From Sialis fuliginosa (lineage: Eukaryota > Arthropoda > Insecta > Megaloptera > Sialidae): a DNA stretch of 64,000 bases. Made by a program: the position numbers and the translations under genes. Under the pieces are notes generated by a model, which saw nothing but the letters and a program-made list of their open reading frames with translations, was not told the origin of the DNA and ran no database searches. The stretch is from the NCBI GenBank assembly GCA_961205875.1, contig OY540814.1:29518151-29582150 (forward strand). The letters run 5' to 3'. Of the stretch, positions 10,601 through 37,400 are shown piece by piece (the first letter of the stretch is position 1; each line of letters starts with the position of its first letter).

Positions 10601-13600
10601 TGGAGATGAATAAATCTACGATAGTTAAAAGCGATGGAATATCCGTTTCGAATAATTTTACATTTACCACCGACGGTAAAAATACAGAAAATGAAAAACC
10701 GGTTTTAAATGAAAACAATACAGTGAATGATGAAGCGGTCGAAGAAAAGAAAAGTAAACGTGTGATTAAAAGGAAGAACGATAAAAAAGATACAGAGAAT
10801 GATAAACCGACGGTTGTGAGAGAATTGAAACGCATCAAAATCGATTTCAGAGAATCAAAACTTGTATCAGAAAATAACAGAAAGCTTCGTTCAGGTCATG
10901 TTATACCAATGAACAAAAGCATTCCTGCTTTAATTAAATCAAAAAAGAACGAATCAACTGAAGAACATGATGAAACTAAAGGAATTGTAAAATCTGATAA
11001 CGAGAATACCCTATTGAATAAAAAGACAAATGTTGAAACTGTACAAAACGAAGAAGAAACGCAAGATGTGGCAATTGAAAAAAAAGATACAGAAGAAAAT
11101 AACACAGGCGAAATAGAGAATTTAGAATCTCAAGATGTTATCGAAAGTTCTCAGGAGTCTGTGTTGTCTTTGCTTAGCAGTAAAATGTTAAAAAAACAAT
11201 CGACAGATAAAACAAAAGAAGAATCTGTAACATCCGTTGAAACTGTAGAAACCGTCGATGAGATTCAAAAAGATAAAAATGTTGCTTCGAAATGTATTAT
11301 TGTTGAAATGGAGACACAATCTGCTCCGAATACATTCATTGAAACCGAGCCAATCATAGTTGAAATGGAATCTCCATCTATAACAGAAAGTACTGATATT
11401 GTGATAACCGAAACTATATCTATGTCAGAATCGATTATTTCTGAAATACCAACGCCTGTAATTTCAGAAACGGTAATAACAGAAGATGAAACAACGACGC
11501 AACCTATTTCAGAAACGCTTATAGCGGAAATAGAAGCTGATAATGATATGCCACTGACTCAACCTCTTACGGAAACTATACTAGCAGATATCGCAGCAAA
11601 AAGTGTTTCTGAATCTGACATGTTAACGCAACCTATTTCCGAGTCACTGATTGAAGAGATTGAAACAGATACGCCGCATCAGATGGAAGCAAAAGATTTT
11701 CACAATGGGTCTGATGACGATGAAGAAAAGTTAATAAATGATTCGTTTATTGAAAGAAAGAACCTAGATAACTCTGTACTTGCTACGAGTATTTTATCAT
11801 CCCCTGATAAAGACATTGATACCGAGGAAGCCCTGACACAAGAATTTCTAAGCAGCACTCTTGGAATATCTCCAATCAAATCCGATAAGAAAGTAGAGGT
11901 TTCAGATGCAGATAAAAAAGAGAATATAGATGTTCCGAAAGTAGCTTCACCTCAGCATAAATCGAGTCCGATGTTGCGACGTGCAACTAGTAGAGTACGG
12001 ACAACGGGTAGGTCAGCGCAGCTTCTGGGTCTGGTTCCAGGGGCTAAACAAATCAACACGAGAGTCGAAGGAACTGTGTTACAGCAAACAGGGCATGTTG
12101 AGTCACCGTCTCGGCCGAATACACGGAATATGAAAATACTTCTGATGGGGAAAATTAAAAATCACACAGGGAAGAACGATGATAAAAGCTTTTTGAGTAA
12201 GCTCGATACAAGCGAAGATTCAGATGAAGTTATCGAAGAACATTTGCCTGATACAAAGATGGAGCTGTTGAAGTTTGAGAAGGATTTGCCGTCGCCGTTA
12301 GCAAAACCTGGTGCGAGTATAATGAAGCGTAAGTGGATTTCTGAAGCTGATGATTTATCGCCGGTGGCAAAGGTTGGTTTATTACAGTTTTTTTAGGATA
12401 TAGAAAATTTATAATTTTCAGTATTTTAAAAACATTTTTTTTCGAGTTAAAATAAAATGTGGGGTTTTAAAATGTAGATCTCAATCAGTAGAATTTGACC
12501 CTTTTTTATCTAAGCCAAAAATGGTACTTTCAAGGGGTACCAAACCATTAATCTTACTCCCTCCCCTTTATTACGATTATTACTGGCTCAAAAATCTGAA
12601 AAAAATTTGTTACAGAGTTTTAGTGATTCTATCAATTTTAAAAAAATAGAGAGGGGGGGCATCATAGAGTTATTTTTTTAATTTCCATACTTAGGCATGT
12701 GAGGTATCAAAATGTAGATCTCAATCAGTAGAATTTGATTCTTCAGGCTTCTACAGAGTTTTATATAGTTATTTTTTATTTTCAGAGAAAGCGTGTTAGT
12801 TTTCACGACCCTCCTATATCGTGCAAGAAAGAATACCTTCCTGAAAACGAACCATTCCGCGTCCGTACTCGAGCAAAACGAATACAAATGAGCACGTACA
12901 AAGAAAACATTAATAAAAACGAAAATGACATAAACGAAATTACCATTGATATCGAACAACTAAACACTCAGAATATTAGTAGCGTAAACAGCATAGCGTG
13001 CTTCCCGACTTTGATCACTTGCGCGGATGAAATCGAGAAACTAAAATCATTCGTACCTGATTTCAAAATATCAGATTTTAACGAATACGCAATAAACAAG
13101 AATTTAAAAACTGTAGGAGACGTTGCGTCTCTTTCAATGAACGATTTGAATGATTTCGAAGACATATGTTCTTGGTTATACGCGTACGATATCAGTTTAA
13201 GAAATAGGGTTTCGGTAGTTGAATGTACTGCCAATGAAAATTCTGTTGCTAATAAATCAGTGATTGAAGAACACGTTTCTCAAACAGAAATAAATACTCG
13301 TGCTAAAAACGATAAGCCAATTAAAAGAATCACTCCTGTTAAAGTAGCGAGTCCAGAAAAAAAAGAAAAAACAACTAAAATGGACAGTCCTGTTAAAATG
13401 GATAGTCCTGTTAAAAAAACAGGTAGTCCTGCTAAATTGGACAGTCCTATTAAAATTGATAGTCCTGTTAAAACGGACAGCCCTATTAAAATGGACAGTC
13501 CAGTTAAAAACACATGCATTCTTACTAAAATGGACAGTCTTATTAAATTGGATAGTCCAGTTAAAAAAACAGACAGCCCTATTAAATTGGACAGTCCAGT

Positions 13601-14814
13601 TGAAAAAATATGCAGTCTTACTAAATTGGACAGTCCTATTAAAAGAAGTAGCCCAATCAAAACGAATGATTCTATTAGTTCTGTTAAAATGGACGTCCCT
13701 ACAAATATAGAAAATTTGAATGAAATCGATAAAAATATTGAAGAAGACGGTTCCAGCATTGTTGAAATAAAAAATGATTTTGAAGTTGGCAGTCCTGCGA
13801 ATATGGAAAGTCCAAAACCGAATATAACCAGGCAGTTTTTGGAAAGCGTGAGCGCTCAGAAGAGGCGGTTAAGTTTATCTAATTCGTTTGTTCTTTTGCC
13901 AGAAGAAACAAAGGCTGTGAATCTTGAAATTGTTCGGAAGAGTTTGACGGAGATTGTAAGAGAATGTCAAAAGGTAATTATTGTTTCATTTTTTCAGAAT
14001 TATTAAACTTTTAATTAGTTATCAATTAAAAGAAATTGTTATTTTTCTCAGTTGTGAAATATTCCAATAACTTTTGTAAAAATGATCGAAATAAAATTTT
14101 TCAAAAAGGAAATTAAAGCTTGAAATCTCTACTTTACAATTCATTAAAAAAAAATATTTTCATTTTCATCATAAAAAGTTACAGGTTGATAAAGAGTGCG
14201 TCGAAATATAAATTTTTTTTTTTAATTTAAAAAAAATCACAGCTAAATTTCCTCTATATAAATTGAAATCTTCAAATACCTTTTTTAACATTTCTTCTAC
14301 GTTTTTTTTTCAGAATGAATTAGTTCCTTCAATGGTTAGGTTCATCGTAGATATGATCGGGTTACAGCAACTTTGCAGTTCTTTATCTTTTGGAGTGGTT
14401 CATTTAAACAGCCACATGTCATGGGATAATATGATCACTGACATCATCAACACCATCGGCCTGGAAGAACTCTTAACTATCGTAACTACAAGCGATAAGA
14501 TCCCGTTAAATGTTATCTCCGACGGCTGTAACAAATTGATATCCCACGCGTTCAAAAACGACACAGCGTGCGAATGGTTCCACGTGTCAGATATATTAGA
14601 TGTGGTCGGCGAGAAGCTGAGCAACGATGAAAAAATGTTAAGTGATTGGTTACTTAAGTACCCGAAGATATCGATGAAAGCGAAACAGAAAAGTGATAGT
14701 GAAAACAGTGTATCTGAAGAAACGCTGAAAATGTTCCGACAGCTCGGTGATAGTTTACCGTCACAAGTGCTAATTAGTGAAACATGTGCTTTGATGAATA
14801 AAAAACATCAATAA
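7616..14814 (+). CDS. Rif1: Rif1, telomere-associated protein / PP1-targeting replication-timing factor
   Basis: Five exons: 7616-8101, 8184-8425, 8484-12372, 12786-13973 and 14314-14814. Phases match, giving about 2,101 residues. The second exon could instead start at 8202; both acceptors are in frame. Exon 3 holds the Rif1 N-terminal helical-repeat domain: the stretch around WYRQWCTIVRLLGVELHR and LPKFNVWWLLILNI aligns with vertebrate RIF1 (LHR.., LEVWW). A long charged, disordered middle follows. Near the end of exon 3 is SIMKRK (SILK-like, about residue 1521), and exon 4 opens with RKRVSF (RVxF class), the two PP1-docking motifs of metazoan Rif1. Exon 4 carries a KTVGDVASLS helical motif and then 12 SPxK sites (about residues 1726-1830). 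Exon 5 is the C-terminal domain. The ATG at 7616 has A at -3 and G at +4. Known role of the family: recruits PP1 to oppose DDK at replication origins and delays heterochromatin replication; also acts in double-strand-break repair choice. Confidence 0.95.
12373..12785 (+). other. Rif1 intron 3, carrying a dispersed short repeat
   Basis: The intron holds two copies of a motif, TGTAGATCTCAATCAGTAGA with flanks (about 12473-12500 and 12713-12740). The same motif occurs in diverged form at 33690-33960 in a patched-like intron. Reading through the donor adds only seven codons (VGLLQFF) before a stop at 12394-12396, so a retained intron would give a Rif1 lacking RVSF and the C-terminal domain. Confidence 0.7.
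13340..13665 (+). repeat. Coding 18-bp minisatellite in Rif1 exon 4 (DSPVK/DSPIK repeats)
   Basis: An imperfect repeat of about 18 bp encodes units such as MDSPVK, LDSPIK and TDSPIK. I count 12 matches to SPxK; two further units have decayed to SLIK and SPVE. The reading frame is kept even where spacing changes (KKTG, KNTCILT, EKICSLT inserts). SPxK is the full consensus for cyclin-dependent kinases and also resembles the S/T-P-K-K DNA-binding unit of histone H1 tails. Confidence 0.92.
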
Positions 14815-16200: not shown

Positions 16201-19200
16201 TACTTGTTTGTTATACATACATTTCAGATCTCTCAAACTCCAAGCGAATCTCTTCCTGAAAAAAATTAATAAATATCTCAGAAACTATCCACAGACAGCA
16301 ATAGTTTCAGAATCATATAAAAAGTTTACTTTTTTTTAAATCTAGCGACTTCTATGATATCATTCAGTCTTGAGATTGTTTAATATCTGAAAAAATATGG
16401 ATTTTTAGGGAAAATATTTGGTACAAAAGTTTCAGGATTTCGAGGGGCAAAATCAATGGAGGTAACAATTTTGACCTTGAGTGGAGGTTTTTTTTTGGGA
16501 TCAACAAATTTTTTTCAAAGGAAATCTATTTATTTTTTTCAAGATTCGTATTTTGTCTGAAAGTTTTATAAAAAATTTAAATTTTACGATTTTTTTTTAA
16601 TTTTGCAACATTAAAAAAAAATTTTTGTTTTAAAAAAAATTATGAAATTATAAAAAATATATATTTTTAAACTGCATTTTTTCTCAAACATTTAAGATAA
16701 TAATTTCAAAATATTTTATCACAAAAAAATTTTTTTGATGTAAATTTTTTTTAAAAATTACGTTAAAATTGAAGTTTTTAAAAAAACTTTTCAGACAAAA
16801 GTTATTTCTATTTTTTTGCAAAATACAAATTTGCAAAAAAATAAATAAAGTTTCTATTTAAAAAAATTACATTTATTATTGGCCTCCCAAAGCAAAGCAC
16901 ACAGATCATTGTTGAAAAAATTTTTAGTTTATACCTGTGGTTTATACCAAATAAAAAATACCTGTTAGTAATTAAAAGTTAATTTATAATGTACCTAATA
17001 AAAAACTAATTTTTCAATAAAAAATTTATTTGTAATCTGTACAAAATAAATAATACAAATGAATATCGACAACATTTTTCTTTATTTCCTATATTATTTT
17101 AAATGGCATTAACTGTTTCAAATTCGATTTTGTTTAAATATCAAATTACCCATATTCAAAATCGAAATTGAAAACATTCAGAATTAATCAATTTTATTTC
17201 AGTATCGTTTTCCAGTCCAAGAAATACATATCATGCTAATTATGATAATTTTAGGTTAGGTTAGCTTTGAACTTGATAAATCGATTAATTCTAATTAGTC
17301 ATTCCATTTTATGTATTTTTCTTTATTCACCTAATACATCTCACTTTACTAAAATCAAAAAATTACACTTGTCAAAGAAATTAAAGGATTTTTCTCATTT
17401 TCGTAAAAAAAATCAATTTTGGTTTAAAAAAAAATCGAAAAAGTATTTTTTCAATGCTGAAAATTTAAGCTTCCAAACGCCATGTTTTAAAATTAGCTAA
17501 AAATTTTTTAAAGACATGTTAATTTCCATTTTGAAAAATTTGATTTTTATAAAAATTTAAAATTCCTTTAATTTTTCTGACGAGTGTATAAAAAAAAATT
17601 GAAATTAACATAAACATTACCTTAATTGGAAATTGTATCTAAATATATACACCATTGAATATAAATAAATAAGAAAGTCGTTCAATAATGAAGTAATTCT
17701 CCTAAACAGAAAAGGCATACATATGTACATAATTACGATAATTAAATAGAGGTAATTTATGGAATGTTTAAATAGCATCAAATTAACTGTTTTTTATTTT
17801 TATAGCAAATATCTATCCATTTTAAAAAGTGAGATTTAATATACATTTTTCATTTTATGTAGTAATTTTAAGGCACAACAGTATTAGAATATCGTCTTTG
17901 ATGTTACAATATCACTTGTGTGTCTTACGCTTTATACAAATATGCGTTTTTACTTATAAGATACAAAGTATAAATAATAGACGTACTAATTATCGCTATT
18001 TCTGTAAATTGTCAAAGATCAATTTTGTTCAGAACGCTTGTAGGGATTAATTAGAACACAAATTTACTTTAAAGAAAATAGTACACGCAAACTTTCAATT
18101 CACTGAATCATCATCAGGCAAAAAATATAGTAAATAATAATTAAATACAATCATAATAGAAAATAATTTAAATATGTATGTAATATCAGATTATGTAGCT
18201 AACCAATTTTAAAACATTGTGGAGTTATATAACATGTTCTTAAACATGTATTTTATTTTACTTCAATTGATAAAGTATTGGTGTGTATGAATTTTAATTT
18301 AATTTAATGATTTTGCCATTTTTAACTAAACATAACCTCACTTTAAGCATGACACATCTACTTGATAATCCTTACAAACTTTTCCAATTTCCAACAATCG
18401 TTTTTGTCGTATTTCTCCTCCAACAATAAGTAAATACAATATAAATCCAATTGTTATATCTTCAAACATAACCGCACTTTTGTATAAAGCTTTACTTTTT
18501 GTACATACCGAAGGAACACACGTTATAACTTAATGAATTTTAGGTTATATTGCTTCAGTGCGTACAAAGCTTCATGCCCAGGTACTAAGATGACCTTGTC
18601 AGGCGAGTAAATCAAAAGTTATACTAATATTAATATAATACAACTTTTGACCCACTCTGTATATTTTAAACTAAATATTACAACTCAAACGTGGTAAGTT
18701 ATAAATCGCCCATTGATTACTAATACTAAAACATAATATCCATTATTTTAAATAGGTTTCGTTGGTTATAGAAGTTTATATTTCTTCTACCGTCTATAAA
18801 ACTATCTTCTTATAATTTGGGCATCGTAAACAGTTTGTTTTTATATATATATATATATATATCTACATTTATACTCGTGTCGTATAATATAAAAATATCT
18901 GCATATCTTTTTCTAATATTATGTTTTAGATAAAAATATTAATAATTTGTACTTGTAAAAATTCATTATGAAACTATTAAATCAGACTAGGGATATTTTA
19001 AATTCAATGTATTCTATATTATTTTTATTAAGAGGTTACAAACCTTCAGAATTTTTTTTTTAAGAAATCTGGCTTGACAGACTTACCATAACATTACTTT
19101 ACAAGAATATTTAAAATCCATTGAAATTCAAAGAAGATATTACCCAAACCGTCAATTTTTTTTTTCAGCAGTCGTCAAACCTAACCTCAAAAAATGTAAA

Positions 19201-19436: not shown

Positions 19437-22400
19437 TCACGGGTATCTTTCGGGCAAGTATTTATGATGCTGACTCAGATTGTGGTGCGAATGCGCGCGC
19501 CTCGGCTGGTGACGATACCAAGCTCTCTCCGCGTCCCTACCGTACAGATCTATCATGCACGGGGCTCTTCTCCACCCCTCCTCGTACCTACGACGCGTCG
19601 CGGCATCCTCTTCAAGAGCGCGCCTTCTCTGCGACTTGCTCGAACTAGATTCACTCGAATCCTCCCCCGACGTTCCGATTCCCAGGTCTTTATCCGACTC
19701 TCCGTACGCTTTGTACGCCTGGATGATGTTCTTGTGTATAGGTTTCGGAGGGAACGCGCTTCCATTCATCGTTAAAGTAGGATGGGGAATGCAGTAGGGG
19801 TGAGGGAATGCTTTTTGTACTGAAGACATTTTAACCAAGTCGGTTTCTTTTGATGGTTTCGCGTGATGAGGCCCGAATAAAGATAACAGCACAGGTAAGA
19901 GGAACAGTCCGTGGAGGGCTCCGAAGAAAATGACTAAGAATATCATTTTAAAGAACACGTGGAAAATGTAACTGTCGGCGAGTATTAGCGCAGAGACTCC
20001 GAGTATAGTACTGACAGATCCTTGGACTATGGGAAGACCTAAAGCATACAGGCATTCCTTGACGCGTTCCTCTGAAGTCTCTTTCTTGGAAGACATGTAC
20101 GCGTAGCAGATGTGTGCGGTGAAATCAACGGAGAAACCGATGCACATGATCAGATTGATCATAGAGATTGAATCCAAGTTGACGTCCCAGAGTGCCATGT
20201 ATCCAGCAACACCCATTTCAATGGACACGATGCTGAGAGCGACCCACACTCCGCATATCAGGTTCGGAATGAAGATGAACGATATCAACATCATTATGAT
20301 GGCACCAACCACCATAGCTTGTATTGAAGTCGGTCGTACGAGTTCAAACTGGAAAACAATTCTGTTGTTAGTAATTTAATTCGGTCTTTATTTTAATGTG
20401 AATTACCTGATCAAAAAATACAAAGTATGGATGGAAAACAATCACATTTAATGGTGATTGTTTGCAGATGTTACGTAGTGCTCGTACCATTTCTTTCTCG
20501 TGGTTAGTGTCGTTGATGTTGACGGCTTGAATTAAAAATCTCGATGCGACTATTTTCTTTCCAGTTTCATCAAACTTTACGTCAAGTGAAAACGGATTAG
20601 CCGGGAATAACCAGTACTGAAAAAATAAAAATAATCAATGTAACAACGGATGTTTAAAATAAAAATTATATTTAATTACAATCTTCCGAAGTTGGTGGGT
20701 AAACTGTAGCGATGCCTTCAAAAAATTTATTGATTTTATTATTTTTCTCATCTTTATTTTTACGATGCCACATATATTCTGCTAAATGTGTCGCGAGTTT
20801 CTTCTTTACACTGCAAGTTCCATCGTAACTAATAGAATGTTCACTGGCGGTCGGATCGACAAATTTCATATTGTGACTCGCGATTAAATTCACATATCCG
20901 GTATCTTTTAAACATCGATACGATTTCCAGCATTTTGACATTAAAATCGAATAAGGACGTATACAATGTTCAATGATATTCAGTAAACTATTTTTACTTT
21001 TGTTTTCCACCACTTTTATAAAACAATTATTAGTACCTCTTTCTATACAACCATATATCCACTGTCCGCCCTCCCGTTTAGTTTTATAATACTTTGATTT
21101 GCCAATTTTACCTTCATATATTTCAACTATTACGTCTTTACCACCAAGCATACAGGTTTCTTTTTTGCAAAGTTCCAGACATACTTCCCTACAGAAATTC
21201 TTCCAGTCTATCACAGTCTTATCACTTAGTTTTAATTCATTCATAATATAATCGTTTGATACCTTCTTGCACCACATATACGTCATGTACAAAATATTAC
21301 TTATACTTAGTTTACTTTCACTGAACCACGATCCCTTACGTATGGATCTTTTAACACGATGTTCATTCTTTCGACAGTACCACTCAAAACCGTCCATAAT
21401 TTCTTTTCGTGAAGTTAATTTCATCGCGTTACCACATTTAGGACATTTATACTGTGACGCAAGCATTCCTAATTCCATACACCATTTAATAACGCTTTTT
21501 TGACCCGCATTCTCTAAGTTTATCAAGAATTTTGAATTAATTTCCATTTTAAGGTATTTTTATACACTTATTTTTAAAAACACACGCAACGAGGTTAAAA
21601 CAGCGCAATTCTATTTAACACATGACGTTAATTTAGTTCATGCAGTACTCACGCTAGCGCTAGTATATCTGTGTTTTTACAGTCCCTGTAAGTCTGGCAG
21701 TAAACTCTCTGCTCATATCTTCTGATTTGGCAGTTTTGTAACATTTTATTATAACAAGAAAAAAAGTTGTATGGGTTGTAGGTACTAATAAAAGCTTTAG
21801 AAACATTTATATTTTATCAAAAATGTATTATTTCATTAAATAATTTAATTGTTTACACTAAAACTATAGCCAGACTCTGACAATAGGATCTATAATTTTG
21901 AAATTAACAACAATTGAATCAATTGAATCATATTTTAGAATCTGATTTCATTAAATAATTGAATAACAAACCTCTTTCAAAGCTGCAATGAAGTTTTCTT
22001 CTGTATCTATCGAGACATTCAAATAGTCCTGATTTCTTTCCATGTACTGGGTGAAAGACCGTAACCAGGACTCTGAATACAGTGGCGATGTTATGTACGA
22101 TGTATTCTCCAATGCCTGCATTACATCTTCAACTTGACTCTGTACAAGAGGTTCTGAATAATTGTGTTCTCCTGTAATTATAACCTATAAAATGATAAAT
22201 GTATCACATATTTGTAATTTGTATGACTCCTGCTAAAGAGTTTTTGAATTTACGTAATTGTTTTATAGGTATATTTGAAACACAATTTTTCGAATCACAA
22301 TTTTTTCGAAAAATTGTTCATTCGAAAAATTGTGTTTTGAAAAATTGAGTTTCGAAAAATTGTTTCGAAACATTTACACCAAACCTGTTTTATATGTGTG

Positions 22401-25400
22401 TGAAAGGTGGGGGGGGGGGGGGTAGCAAAATATAACATTGTTAAGCAGAGGTAAGAACCAATTTAAACAGAAAATACAATTAGTAGCAATGTTACAAACC
22501 CGTTTTATGTTGTTATCGCAAAAGGTGGCAGCACATATTATTTTACATTCTTATTTTGAAAACTACGTAAATGCGGCGAATGCTAATAATTTTCTTGTGA
22601 TTTCTCACTATTACAAAAAATGTTTACGATTTTTACGAAAGTAATAACATGAAGTCCTTGGTCCCGGCTTTAAATTTTGAAATAAAAAATACTCCTCTGA
22701 AACTTCGTGAGTGGATTCATTTTGGTGTAACCTACAACTTTTTTATCTTCGAAAATTCTCAGAATTGGGGCGTTTTTGATGTGGCATGCATCAAACATGT
22801 CAATTTAACGATAGTTATAGGAAATTTACGAACAACCCTTTCTTTTTTACTTGAATTATAAGATTTTATAATGCAAACATCGGGAAATATATTCACCTAC
22901 AAAAATATTGGGGCATTTAGCGGGACCTACACCCTCAACATGTCAAATTCATGATGTTATGTAATTTATAAATAACCGGCTGATTTTTGCACAATTGCTA
23001 GATAAATAATAGTCAAATGTTATGGTTATACTGGCCTACAAAAATCAAGGGTATTTTGCCCTGACTACGGCCTAAACATGTTTGACGCATTTCACATCAA
23101 AAACGCCCCAATTCTCAGAATTTTCGAAGATAAGAAAGTTGTAAGTTACGCCAAAATGAATCCATTTCAAAATTTAAAAAATTTCATGCCAAAAAATTAA
23201 AAATTTTTTTTTAACTTTGACTGTGTACATCGAATGTAAAATTTTTTTAGCTAATTTTAAAACATGGCATTTGGAAGCTTAAATTTTCAGCTTAAAAAAA
23301 TACTTTTTCGATTTTTTTGAACCAAAATTGATTTTTTTACGAAAATGAGAAAAAGCCTTTAATTTCTTTGACAAGTGTAGTTTTTTGATTTTAGTAAAGT
23401 GAGATGTATTAGGTGAATTAAGAAAAATACATAAAATGGAATGACTAATTATTAATTTACCTAAAAGTATCATAATTAGCACGATATGTATTTTAATGTA
23501 ATTTTTATTAAAGCCGGGATCGAGGACTTACCTGTATTCTATACGGGAACTCCCTAAAGAACTCGTCTTCGCGGTCAAAGAACGTGACGCTGTACGAGTC
23601 TGCCTTAGCGACACGCCTCCTCTCCAGGCCCTCCTTGATCCTGGTGAGTCCGAAGGCCGCGCCGGCCAGGTACGCGACGAACGCGACGAGTATGATCGCC
23701 TTGGCGGTGCGCGTGCACAGCGCCACGGCGGCCACGTCGCGGAACCAACGCATCGCCGCGTGCTCGCGATTGTCCGCCGGGTGGATTGGCGGGTCCGTCA
23801 CCTGGACCACGCCGCCGCTGGCGATGTTGGTCACCGCCGCTGTGCCGTTGCTAGTCGGTATCGCGACCGCCGCGTCCACGTCGTCGTTCTGGATGACACC
23901 GCCCGAGCAGAACCAACGATACAGTCTGGATTTTTCACCTAGAATTAGAAAATATTAAGCTGTTAGATTTTACCTGAATATCTAAAATTAAAAAAATCAG
24001 TTAAGGTCAAATAAGGACCTTTTTTATATTAAAAAGGCTATGTTAATGGTAAACTTTGGTTTATTATTAATCTAAAGAAGTATGAAAACCAACTTTTCTT
24101 AAATGATTTAAGACATTTAATAAGGCCACTTAACTAAATTAAACATTTTCAGATAATTATAATGTTATTTTGTATGGGAACTATGTTTTAATCAACATTT
24201 GGCGTAATAATTGCTTAATTACAGCTAATAAATAATCGATTAATAATTGCTACATCCATAACAGCTGCTAAACTCTCGCCAGATCACGTTATTTCTTTTT
24301 ATAGAACTATTAGTAAATAAAAATGACATACAAATCTAGAACAAAATATGTGATCATAGATTGTAATAAATAATAAAAAGTCCAGTCTTAAATTTGTTGG
24401 GCCCTTATTATCCCTAAGGTACTACGGTATATATATTTTTTTTATAAAACAAAAACTAAAAAACAATAGAAATTAACTTTTTACCATAATCGAACTATTA
24501 ACTGGTCATTGTCAAGTCTATAAGGATCCGAGTAATAACTGTTCAATTTATTAAAAAAAATAAAGCCACACTGATATTTTTTCTGTCGTAAAAAAATCAT
24601 AAGGAGTGACACTAATGTACAAAAAATAAATCCTATTGACTTTTTTTTGGGGGGCAGGTGGCCACTAACGATTCCCGCCCTAGGAGTCCCCCCCCCCCTC
24701 CCTGGCAATGGCCTCTTTATAACATTCGCACTGATTGCAACCCTATCGAAGTAATTTATCATTTATCGAGTTGATTTTTAAAGCAATGTTGTTACATAAC
24801 TGATATCCGGTGTTTTTTGGTTACGCAAGTGTTATCTAACGCCAGGCTGAAGACATCTCTGTTACACTTATTGATTGTGTGACGTTTGTGGGCTCGCTCA
24901 CCTACTTCCTAAACTTTCTCTCAAATATCCATAGGCCCGTACACTTATTGCGAACTATTATACACGGCTACATTAACACCGACCAATCGACTTCGATCAC
25001 TACTATCTTAAACTGAATCAATCAGAATTCTACTCAGAGCATAAGTCATTTTTTGGTTCAAATCAGTGTAATTTTTTAGTAAACTTTTTTTTTATCTTTA
25101 AATTTTTTGTCGATCAGTTAAGCCCGATTAAGCAAAAAATATGTTATGTTAATTTGTAAAAAAAATCCATTATTTGTTAGCTGCTAACTAACAAATACTT
25201 ATTTGGCAACCCAGAAAACCTTTAATAAGGTATTAGCTGAAATACTAACTAATCAACTTATTTTAATTTGTTCATAATAGGGGAAGGAGGTCTCGCCGGT
25301 CTTAGGGCATTTGATAGTCTTAAAGTTAATGATGTAAGCTACATTTAAAAAAAAATTGAGTCTGTAGGATCGCGCCAAGCTGAGATATGAATTATTCAAC

Positions 25401-34400: not shown

Positions 34401-37400
34401 TTAAGTACTTATGACGATGAAATCATTTATTTCGATAAGGATTAATGTTTTGCAGGTCATAAGTCCACGTAAACAAAACCCAATTATTTTTAATTTTCTT
34501 TGTAACATAAAAGCAGTCATTGTGGCTTACATACAAAAGTTAGATATATGGTGTCGCTGACTTTATTGTAGATCTTTTGATTCTACACAATTCTTTAATA
34601 CATTATTTTGTTCAATATTGAACGGTTTAGGCAGCGTATTGCAAAATATCGCGCCGACGGCAAAATTTTTTCCGACTTGATTTACTATTATCGTCACTGC
34701 TTAGTTGTTATGTTACCTAACGTAACAAAATATAGCCTATAACCTGAATTAAAAAAAACCACGTATATCGGATAAGTGAACTAACGGACAGACAGACAGA
34801 CAGAGAGACGTTGAGCTTTATATATATTAAGGATTAAGTGTTTAATTTTTGTATCCATACAAGAAAATTCCAAGCAATACTCTTTACCGCGAGATTGGAA
34901 CGTGACGTTCCAATCTCGCGGTAAAGCGCGCAAATGTATGGCTACCAATATTCATAATATGTATCATACGTGCATTGCATCGGTCTTTTATTTGATTTGT
35001 CCGAGACACGCACAATTACGTGTTGGATAAAGTAATTGTTGTAATGTAAAGACATTAAGTTGTTATGTATAATATACTCTATAAAACGATAGACAGGGTA
35101 ATTGTAGATATTGTACAATGGCTTTCTGAAGATGCCGCGTGTTTATTGTAATACATAGTGGCTGTTTTTTTATGTAAAGGATGTAGTTTTTACGCTCTCT
35201 TTGTTTATTTTAATGAATGTACTTAACATTTGAAAGGAAATGTCTAAATTGTTTTAATTTTAATATTTATTGCGAGGACAAAATTAAATGTAATGGAAAC
35301 TAATTTATTAAGAAATATACACTCATAAAATTAACCAAAAAATTACACAAATTACAGGATAATGCCAGTTGACAGTTAAAGATATATAAAAAAAAATTAT
35401 AAATGCGAAAGTAACAGTTTTCACAGTTTAATTGCTAAACCGATTTTGATGAAATTTGGCAAGGAGAAAACTTGCATCCTGAGGAAGAAAATAAGCTACT
35501 ACGGGTAACAGCTAGTAAAAAATAAATAAAAGATAGATAACAGGGGTCAAAACTGGTCAGTAAAATCAATTAAAGTCAGTTTTTTGAAAAAATGGTCAGT
35601 TTTGTCAGTTTTTTGGGTTTGGCACTCAAAGTTTTCACATCGGAGCCCTATTTATCGTGAAAAAACTCACGATTTGTTTTCATAACGACACAATTATCGT
35701 GAAAAATATATATTCAAATTATAAATAATTTTGTTTACTTATTTGTATTGTTTATTATCAAATTTTAGAAGGTATTTTATGACATAATTGTAACGTATGT
35801 ATATTTTATACACATTGTAACATATAAACAACATAATCTCACTCTTTCACTGGCTATGCCAAGTTCGGTGAGAAAAATTAACTGTAAAGTTTGTTACTTT
35901 TGTTATGAATATAATAAAAAGATGCTAAGGGTTGGCTATATGTCTTAACTCGGTTCAGATAGTCAGTAAAAGTCAGTATTTTTGAACATTGAACTTGTTT
36001 TGACCCTTGAGAGATAATTTAGAATAACTTACCAATCATAAGAAAAGGCGCCGCCAGATTGATTCCAATAAATTCAACCCCGAGATAGACGACGGCACCG
36101 AAAGCAGCGCACGTGCCCATCGCCGCGGAGACGTTACCTAGCAAGCCCAGCCACGGCTTGGCGCGTACCCAGTCCGACATGCAGCACGTGATTATAGAGA
36201 ACAGCGCCATCAGCAGGAATGTGCTGGCGAAGTAAGGCACGACGGCGCGCGTGTTGCGCTCCAGCTCGTGGTCGAGAGTGCGCGACGCGAACCGGGCTAT
36301 GGACAGCTGCTCGAACCGGCCGAACGCGTCCGCCCGACCGACGGCGTCCAGGAAGGCGTCTTCCCACGCGGAGCCTCTGGAATTATACAAATAATTGTAT
36401 TTAATTCAGGAACTTGAACCGGAATTTATTTATGATTCGAGTTCTACATATTGCAAACTATTTGGGTTCAAAAACCGTTTGGCTAATACGGAGACTCTGG
36501 GGGTCCTCTGTCAGAATTGTGAAAAATCACGTATATAGTTATTCAGAATAGGGTTGACGCGCATGCGTGACTAGATCAGTGTTAACAACTTTTATAAATC
36601 GCGCATTTTATAAAACGACTGGCCACGTTTAGCTGTGTTATATTTAATTATTTAGTTTAAGTTAGAGTAGTCCAGATAGATTGGTTCGTTTTCAGGTAGG
36701 GTTAGGTTAGGTTTATGAATTTCTGTTTATGCACTAAATAATATATTAACATAGATACAACATACTCGACTCTATTCTAACACATCAACACGTGACTTTT
36801 AGGGTTTTTGACAGAGGACCCCCAGAGTCTCCGTATTTACCAAACCGTTTTTTTAAGGGTTCGGGTTCAAGTTTGTAATTGAAAGAAAATTATTCTGTTA
36901 AATAAAAACATTTCCTGAAGAAAAAAAAAACATTAATAGTCATTAAAATATTGCTAAAAAAAAGGGCACAAAATAAAATTACATTTTAAAGATTGAAATT
37001 TCTATTTTTCAGATTTTTTTGCAAATTGAAATAAAGAAAGTAAAAAATATGTAAATTTAAATTTATTGGAGAAAAATATTAAAATATTAAAAACAATTTA
37101 GGTTCTACATGTTGCAAACTATTTGGGTTCAAAAACCGTTTTTTTAAGGGTTCAGGTTTGTAATTGAAAGAAAATTATTTTGTTAAAAAAAAATAAATTA
37201 TAATTAACAAATAAAACATTTCCTGAAGAAGAAAAAAACTAGTCATTAAAATATTGCTAGAAAAAAGGACACAAAATAAAATTGCATTTTAAAGATTTAA
37301 ATTTCTATTTTTCAGATTTTTTTGCAAATTGAAATAAAGAAAGTAAAAAATATGTAAATTTAAATTTATCAGAGAAAAAGGCTTTCAAAATTGCAATTTT

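Follow-up and report, generated by a model that had tools for sequence, protein, structure and literature searches.

We found that a stretch of 64,000 nucleotides from the genome of Sialis fuliginosa (contig OY540814.1, positions 29,518,151 to 29,582,150, referred to as the window) contains an open reading frame (ORF) derived from a Merlin (IS1595-type) transposase, which lies in one of the introns of a patched-like gene and has lost its acidic catalytic triad. We consider it probable that selection retained this ORF after its catalytic function had gone, making it a candidate for domestication. Our analysis directly supports the homology, the triad loss, the open frame, the single copy, the failure to find terminal repeats and protein-level constraint over the history of the sequence.

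The ORF runs uninterrupted from ATG to TAA on the minus strand (window positions 20672-21547) and encodes 291 amino acids with zero internal stops. Its open stretch starts at 21559, and an in-frame TAA is found four codons ahead of the ATG. The Pfam model PF12762 (DDE_Tnp_IS1595, ISXO2-like) matched amino acids 150-228 with an E-value of 1.1e-8 and 35.6 bits (cutoff 27), while the NCBIfam model NF033547 reached 35.2 bits, which is under its cutoff of 75. With the frame complete and the domain above its cutoff, the open 291-codon Merlin/ISXO2 frame proposed in a preliminary description of this DNA was confirmed. A sequence search of solved structures with the ORF gave chance-level matches only (best E 0.12), and no animal relative appeared when viral and prokaryote collections were scanned with the ORF and its relatives. 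A viral or phage origin was rejected, as viral contigs gave no match and phages gave none at E <= 1; the plasmid search returned a single weak match, which covers 31% of the query at 26% identity. By eye, TATAAAAATA is seen directly ahead of the ATG, together with what may be a short intron (GTGAGT ... AG) upstream, within 21548-21700 on the minus strand.

The catalytic positions were assessed in a reference alignment of the window protein with 57 bacterial IS1595-type proteins, collected from 83 loci. The window row was entered into the alignment and the fold model without its methionine, and numbers there are one lower. All 57 relatives carry aspartate at columns 144 and 205, where the window protein has tyrosine and lysine; column 242, which is aspartate in the window, holds glutamate in 54/57 and aspartate in 3/57. 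Rows from the insect's own genome with an aligned codon gave a similar picture, with aspartate at 144 in 8 of 10 (the rest M and K) and at 205 in 12 of 13 (the remaining one E), and glutamate at 242 in 6 of 10 (the rest R, I, P and S). These exceptions are mostly rows that are out of frame there, and those at 242 were read as out-of-frame or mis-threaded. With Y, K and D, the window ORF thus lacks the D, D, E triad of a Merlin/IS1595 transposase. Its triad codons are TAT, AAA and GAT, compared with GAT, GAT and GAA in the nearest relatives. Because these relatives carry GAT where the window has AAA, Lys205 needs two base changes, in agreement with the earlier estimate of at least two. The earlier claim that all three catalytic positions were replaced is correct for the residues as such; judged by residue type, however, the changes at 144 and 205 are radical and E242D only conservative. 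A shifted alternative triad is unlikely: Tyr144 has a glutamate on each side (E142 and E145), but Lys205 has no D or E within 5 residues.

The genome comprises 392 Mb in 20 contigs, and the window lies on a contig of 29.6 Mb, ~56 kb short of its end. On the mitochondrial contig, tRNA-Met stands immediately ahead of ND2, an arrangement that speaks against a ditrysian moth or butterfly. A translated search of this genome resulted in 30 matches at E <= 0.001, including the window copy, from 37 candidates, and the PF12762 search in 18 matches of 20 candidates, again with the window copy included. The preliminary description had named numerous near-identical copies sharing these changes as evidence against its reading; their presence was rejected, since the closest of the 29 other translated matches is a fragment of 87 amino acids with 68% identity. 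When the 428-base upstream flank was searched for, with common words skipped, the sole match was the flank itself. No convincing terminal inverted repeats were detected within 900 bases on either side or in 20400-22250, nor did we find Merlin-type repeats beginning with GG and an 8-9 bp target duplication around the ORF. Between the two flanks, the best inverted match was a 10-mer (E 0.61), so that the terminal repeats indeed appear to be missing, as had been described; inverted matches were only short and AT-rich, and flanking repeats were therefore rejected as transposon cut marks. The ends were not definable through the relatives either, as the C1 and C9 copies share ~1.4 kb with no clear terminal repeats.

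The copies nearest to the window ORF lie in clusters at C1:19.01-19.03 Mb and C9:0.80 Mb. They are broken, and their matches switch frame; the mapped codons contain 2 stops in the copy C1b, 7 in C1c and 1 in C9m. C1b has kept D/D/E, C1c has kept D/D with the third site out of frame, and the C9 pieces have kept the second and third catalytic sites. Decay has therefore run in opposite directions: same-subfamily relics carry stops or frameshifts with the triad kept where readable, whereas the window copy has lost the triad and has zero stops. Two structures were seen among the broken copies. The 3′ part of one copy is repeated three times with a spacing of ~365 bases and 97% identity (L035:5507-6599, minus strand), and a segment common to L032:6360-7779 and L035:5373-8082 starts with TTTCAG|G and ends near GTAAGT, edges that resemble splice sites by eye.

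To estimate constraint we used codons that had three or more identical residues within 4 positions to either side, a filter that drops out-of-frame stretches and was passed by 259 of 276 mapped codons in C1b, 201 of 264 in C1c and 238 of 249 in C9m. Over 259 codons the window and C1b differ at 70, 53 and 119 first, second and third codon positions, with nonsynonymous (dN) and synonymous (dS) divergences of 0.28 and 1.62 by NG86. The corresponding dN/dS pairs were 0.30/1.73 for C1c, 0.32/1.97 for C9y and 0.30/2.58 for C9x, and dS was saturated for C9m. The resulting ratio is 0.12-0.17 against four of the five cluster rows, with dS near saturation, and was not computable for the fifth. A composite of 278 positions gave 0.28/1.98, with 76/55/132 differences at the three codon positions (chi-square 36, p 1.4e-8), and maximum likelihood estimates of dS ranged from 2.4 to 15.8, i.e. 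saturated. Among themselves, the broken copies gave pairs of 0.12/0.18, 0.08/0.17, 0.15/0.32 and 0.08/0.33. Taken over the history of the window amino acid sequence as a whole, these values indicate purifying selection. Changes specific to its lineage are concentrated in one block: the cluster shares its residue with more distant genome copies at 90 sites, of which 30 have changed in the window copy only, against 8 changes confined to the cluster. Within amino acids 216-245, 13 of 21 such sites are affected, compared with 17 of the 69 outside this block (Fisher p 0.003, for a region picked post hoc from the list).

We then calculated the chance that, at any distance, the three triad codons change residue while the other 288 codons stay without a stop, with kappa set to 2, sites treated as independent and an active copy assumed at the start. 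The maximum was 6.6e-5 with an AT-rich spectrum and 1.75e-4 with a flat spectrum, decreasing to 1.9e-5 and 3.1e-5, respectively, with an assumed 0.04 frameshifts per substitution. Even when multiplied by ~20 loci, the bound is at most 0.4%. Triad loss with an open frame is thus very unlikely under neutral decay. This bears on the view that the ORF is a neutral relic, a recently dead copy of an extinct Merlin subfamily that lost its triad by luck before any stop arose. We regard such a history as unlikely, though it deserves some weight: Merlin relics abound in the genome, a low copy number and missing ends would suit an old dead family as well, and most of the constraint could date from transposon time, as dS to the nearest relatives exceeds 1.6. 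However, the flat-spectrum maximum holds for any single age, and if the lack of stops is accepted at P ~0.05, only ~0.05-0.07 unconstrained substitutions per site are available, at which the triple loss has P 0.002-0.004. So short a span could not accommodate the number of changes around the third motif, and a recent death is also at odds with the lack of close sister copies and detectable terminal repeats.

Next to the catalytic core we examined the N-terminal part. The zinc-ribbon cysteine columns are almost invariant in the 57 bacterial relatives (C35 in 57/57, C38 and C58 in 56/57 each), and all three cysteines are kept in the window protein. The fourth zinc ligand would be His63. The Pfam IS1595 zinc-ribbon model PF12760 gave no match on the ORF at E <= 1, and the earlier statement that the zinc ribbon is kept thus stands for the three cysteines, but not for the family model. 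In the fold model, residues 227-244 have a predicted local distance difference test (pLDDT) score <50. Foldseek against PDB returned transposase and integrase folds with low TM-scores (best row ISCth4, 0.39), and the viral library gave similar results.

The ORF has the same orientation as its host gene and lies within a phase-0 GT...AG intron of 1,355 bp, preceded by an exon that ends in NFIAALKE and followed by one that begins with YWLFPANPFS, which bears out the nested position described earlier. The label patched-like is based on one exon-containing stretch with a PF02460 match further up the same strand, the exon layout and the preliminary description; none of the five other scanned exon pieces, including those flanking the intron, scored above a Pfam cutoff. 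Its intronic position and shared strand could mean that the ORF is an alternative last exon or a retained intron of the patched-like gene. Such an origin would fit the 55 nt between the ORF stop and the splice acceptor, which contain neither AATAAA nor ATTAAA as a polyadenylation hexamer. Yet the ORF has its own ATG, and because of the TAA four codons before it the full frame cannot join the upstream exon in frame, unless splicing enters inside; we consider participation in the host transcript very improbable. Introns in the host-gene region also hold an inverted repeat pair (window 17222-17510 and 23237-23493), 85% identical over 289 columns.

In the explanation we favour, a Merlin transposase gene would have inserted long ago into the intron of the patched-like gene and lost its ends, and the host would have kept the protein after the loss of catalysis. 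If expressed, the protein would most likely work as a pseudo-transposase, with the zinc ribbon and the helices still binding DNA and the RNase H domain serving as a folded dimer or scaffold. Its role could then be that of a DNA-binding regulator or a competitor of active Merlin transposase, not that of a nuclease. As a structural guess, Lys205 might, next to Asp242, replace the metal ion that is missing. Truncated P-element proteins are known to poison active transposase, and a dead transposase that binds Merlin ends or forms mixed dimers could similarly have been kept by conflict, as a repressor. The kept putative binding part, the lost catalysis and the presence of an open Merlin frame with intact D, D, E in this genome (L040:4763-5626, plus strand, at C1:20.09 Mb) are compatible with this scenario, which we nevertheless judge improbable: the L040 protein is just 28% identical to the window protein, the nearest relatives, whose ends should be recognised, are broken, and end sequences could not be defined.

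Several points weigh against retention by the host. The constraint spans the whole path, and much of it may reflect transposon life; because dS is near saturation, it is not separable into parts before and after the triad loss. The codon filter also favours conserved codons and lowers dN somewhat. The neutral bound, the only argument for selection after the loss, hinges on the substitution and indel models that were assumed. The proposal of the preliminary description, that selective loss of catalysis with an open frame suggests domestication, is thus strengthened by the bound and by purifying selection over the history of the sequence, but this selection is not dated to after the loss. In addition, C9far (C9, 841.7 kb), which is joined to the window copy in the tree (99/98), is broken; its match does not cover the triad, and the loss may or may not be common to both. 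The putative DNA-binding part shows no significantly higher conservation than the core, with 57/82 residues identical to the nearest relatives in amino acids 56-137 and 56/101 in 138-245 (Fisher p 0.066). The fold model leans to the fold of the bacterial relatives because it was built with them as alignment. Finally, no polyadenylation hexamer (AATAAA or ATTAAA) was seen between the ORF stop and the acceptor.

The same genome contains other open Merlin-like frames. The frame L043:4521-5441 (plus strand, at C1:46.2 Mb) has 307 codons with the motifs VELKH, SRFW and VDRLW, and carries K156, R204 and D239 at the triad positions. It matched no Pfam family at E <= 0.01 and is outside the PF12762 genome match list; its kinship is based on a translated match (E 1.2e-13) and on the tree, in which it sits among C14 copies (support 90/84 and 93/95) and away from the window copy. 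It is apparently independent of the latter, and its neutral bound is 5.8e-5 to 1.5e-4. The two proteins lie in different parts of the Merlin tree, and both have a basic residue for the second catalytic Asp and Asp for the third Glu, as if a positive side chain took the place of the metal. A further pair of frames on C7 (L041:4669-5511, minus strand, and L042:4619-5452, plus strand) is 83% identical, with common short core deletions relative to L040 and a dN/dS of 0.098/0.504 over 277 codons (~0.19); the PF12762 scores are 26.2 bits for L041, just under the cutoff, and 31.1 bits for L042. We tentatively raise the possibility that this genome repeatedly turned Merlin transposases into metal-free pseudo-enzymes, with the window copy, L043 and the C7 pair as three lineages. 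The intact L040 has two broken copies with 90% identity, L044 and L045, each lying on a different contig in a segment of >3.1 kb, with 96% identity between the segments; their homology to L040 covers only the ORF and ~150 bases upstream. In the Genome_contigs collection, a search with L040 gave no match, and one with an alignment gave 3 bacterial loci.

Compared with Merlin and bacterial IS1595 transposases (PF12762), the window ORF is alike in its domain, motif order, RNase H fold and intronless single frame of usual size, and unlike in the altered triad, the lack of detectable terminal repeats and of near-identical copies. An N-terminal zinc ribbon is a trait of IS1595 groups other than IS1016. 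Domesticated transposases and Merlin-like protist candidates are already known, and the window ORF adds an insect candidate. Merlin elements are described with 24-462 bp repeats beginning with GG and 8-9 bp target duplications, and without an N-terminal zinc ribbon (PMC8101967). The same source reports kept, apparently immobile Merlin-like frames without terminal repeats in the protists Stentor, Symbiodinium and Perkinsela, for which domestication was proposed, several of those in Stentor and Symbiodinium being without the DDE motif (PMC8101967). The window ORF shares the kept frame, the absence of terminal repeats and the DDE loss seen in several of them, but it resides in an insect and has same-genome relatives with opposite decay. 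A study on the ciliate Oxytricha calls its IS1595-like transposases domesticated (PMC3558436); the family is the same and host use is likewise proposed, but the use proposed there is DNA rearrangement. We found no insect Merlin domestication in the openly licensed literature, in which insect papers were not examined in full. In other superfamilies, CENP-B-like, ZBED and THAP proteins are catalytically dead domesticated transposases with the DNA-binding part kept, and the window ORF is comparable in its lost catalysis and its putative DNA-binding part. If our interpretation is true, the ORF would exemplify an animal host keeping a Merlin transposase without catalysis, and the decayed relatives that still bear the triad would serve, within this genome, as a built-in control. 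Whether pseudo-transposases converge on a basic residue in place of the catalytic metal could then be tested directly with the parallel K/R/D protein.

Table 1. Positions in the window of the transposase-derived ORF, its parts and the surrounding host gene.
Feature	Position	Strand	Basis
291-codon Merlin/IS1595-type transposase-derived ORF	20672..21547	-	PF12762 match and genome search
Putative zinc ribbon C35-x2-C38 ... C58-x4-H63	21359..21445	-	three Cys columns kept; PF12760 no match; His ligand inferred
Putative DNA-binding part, amino acids 56-129 (second half of ribbon and helices)	21161..21382	-	model helices H73-76, H81-92, H97-104, H108-128
Codon 144 TAT (Tyr), first catalytic position	21116..21118	-	D in 57/57 bacterial and 8/10 genome rows
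Codon 205 AAA (Lys), second catalytic position	20933..20935	-	D in 57/57 bacterial and 12/13 genome rows
Codon 242 GAT (Asp), third catalytic position	20822..20824	-	E 54/57 and D 3/57 in bacterial rows; E in 6/10 genome rows
Third motif block, amino acids 216-245, with concentrated lineage-specific changes	20813..20902	-	Fisher p 0.003
Phase-0 intron (GT...AG) of patched-like host gene, holding the ORF	20617..21971	-	splice sites
Upstream exon (ends ...NFIAALKE; upstream end approximate)	21972..22184	-	
Downstream exon (begins YWLFPANPFS; downstream end approximate)	20413..20616	-	
Host-gene open stretch with exon, Patched sterol-sensing domain (SSD) match	36022..36405	-	PF02460 42.5 bits, cutoff 23

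Elsewhere in the window, a long open frame with a run of DSPVKMDSPVKK-like repeats was observed at 13257-14006 on the plus strand.
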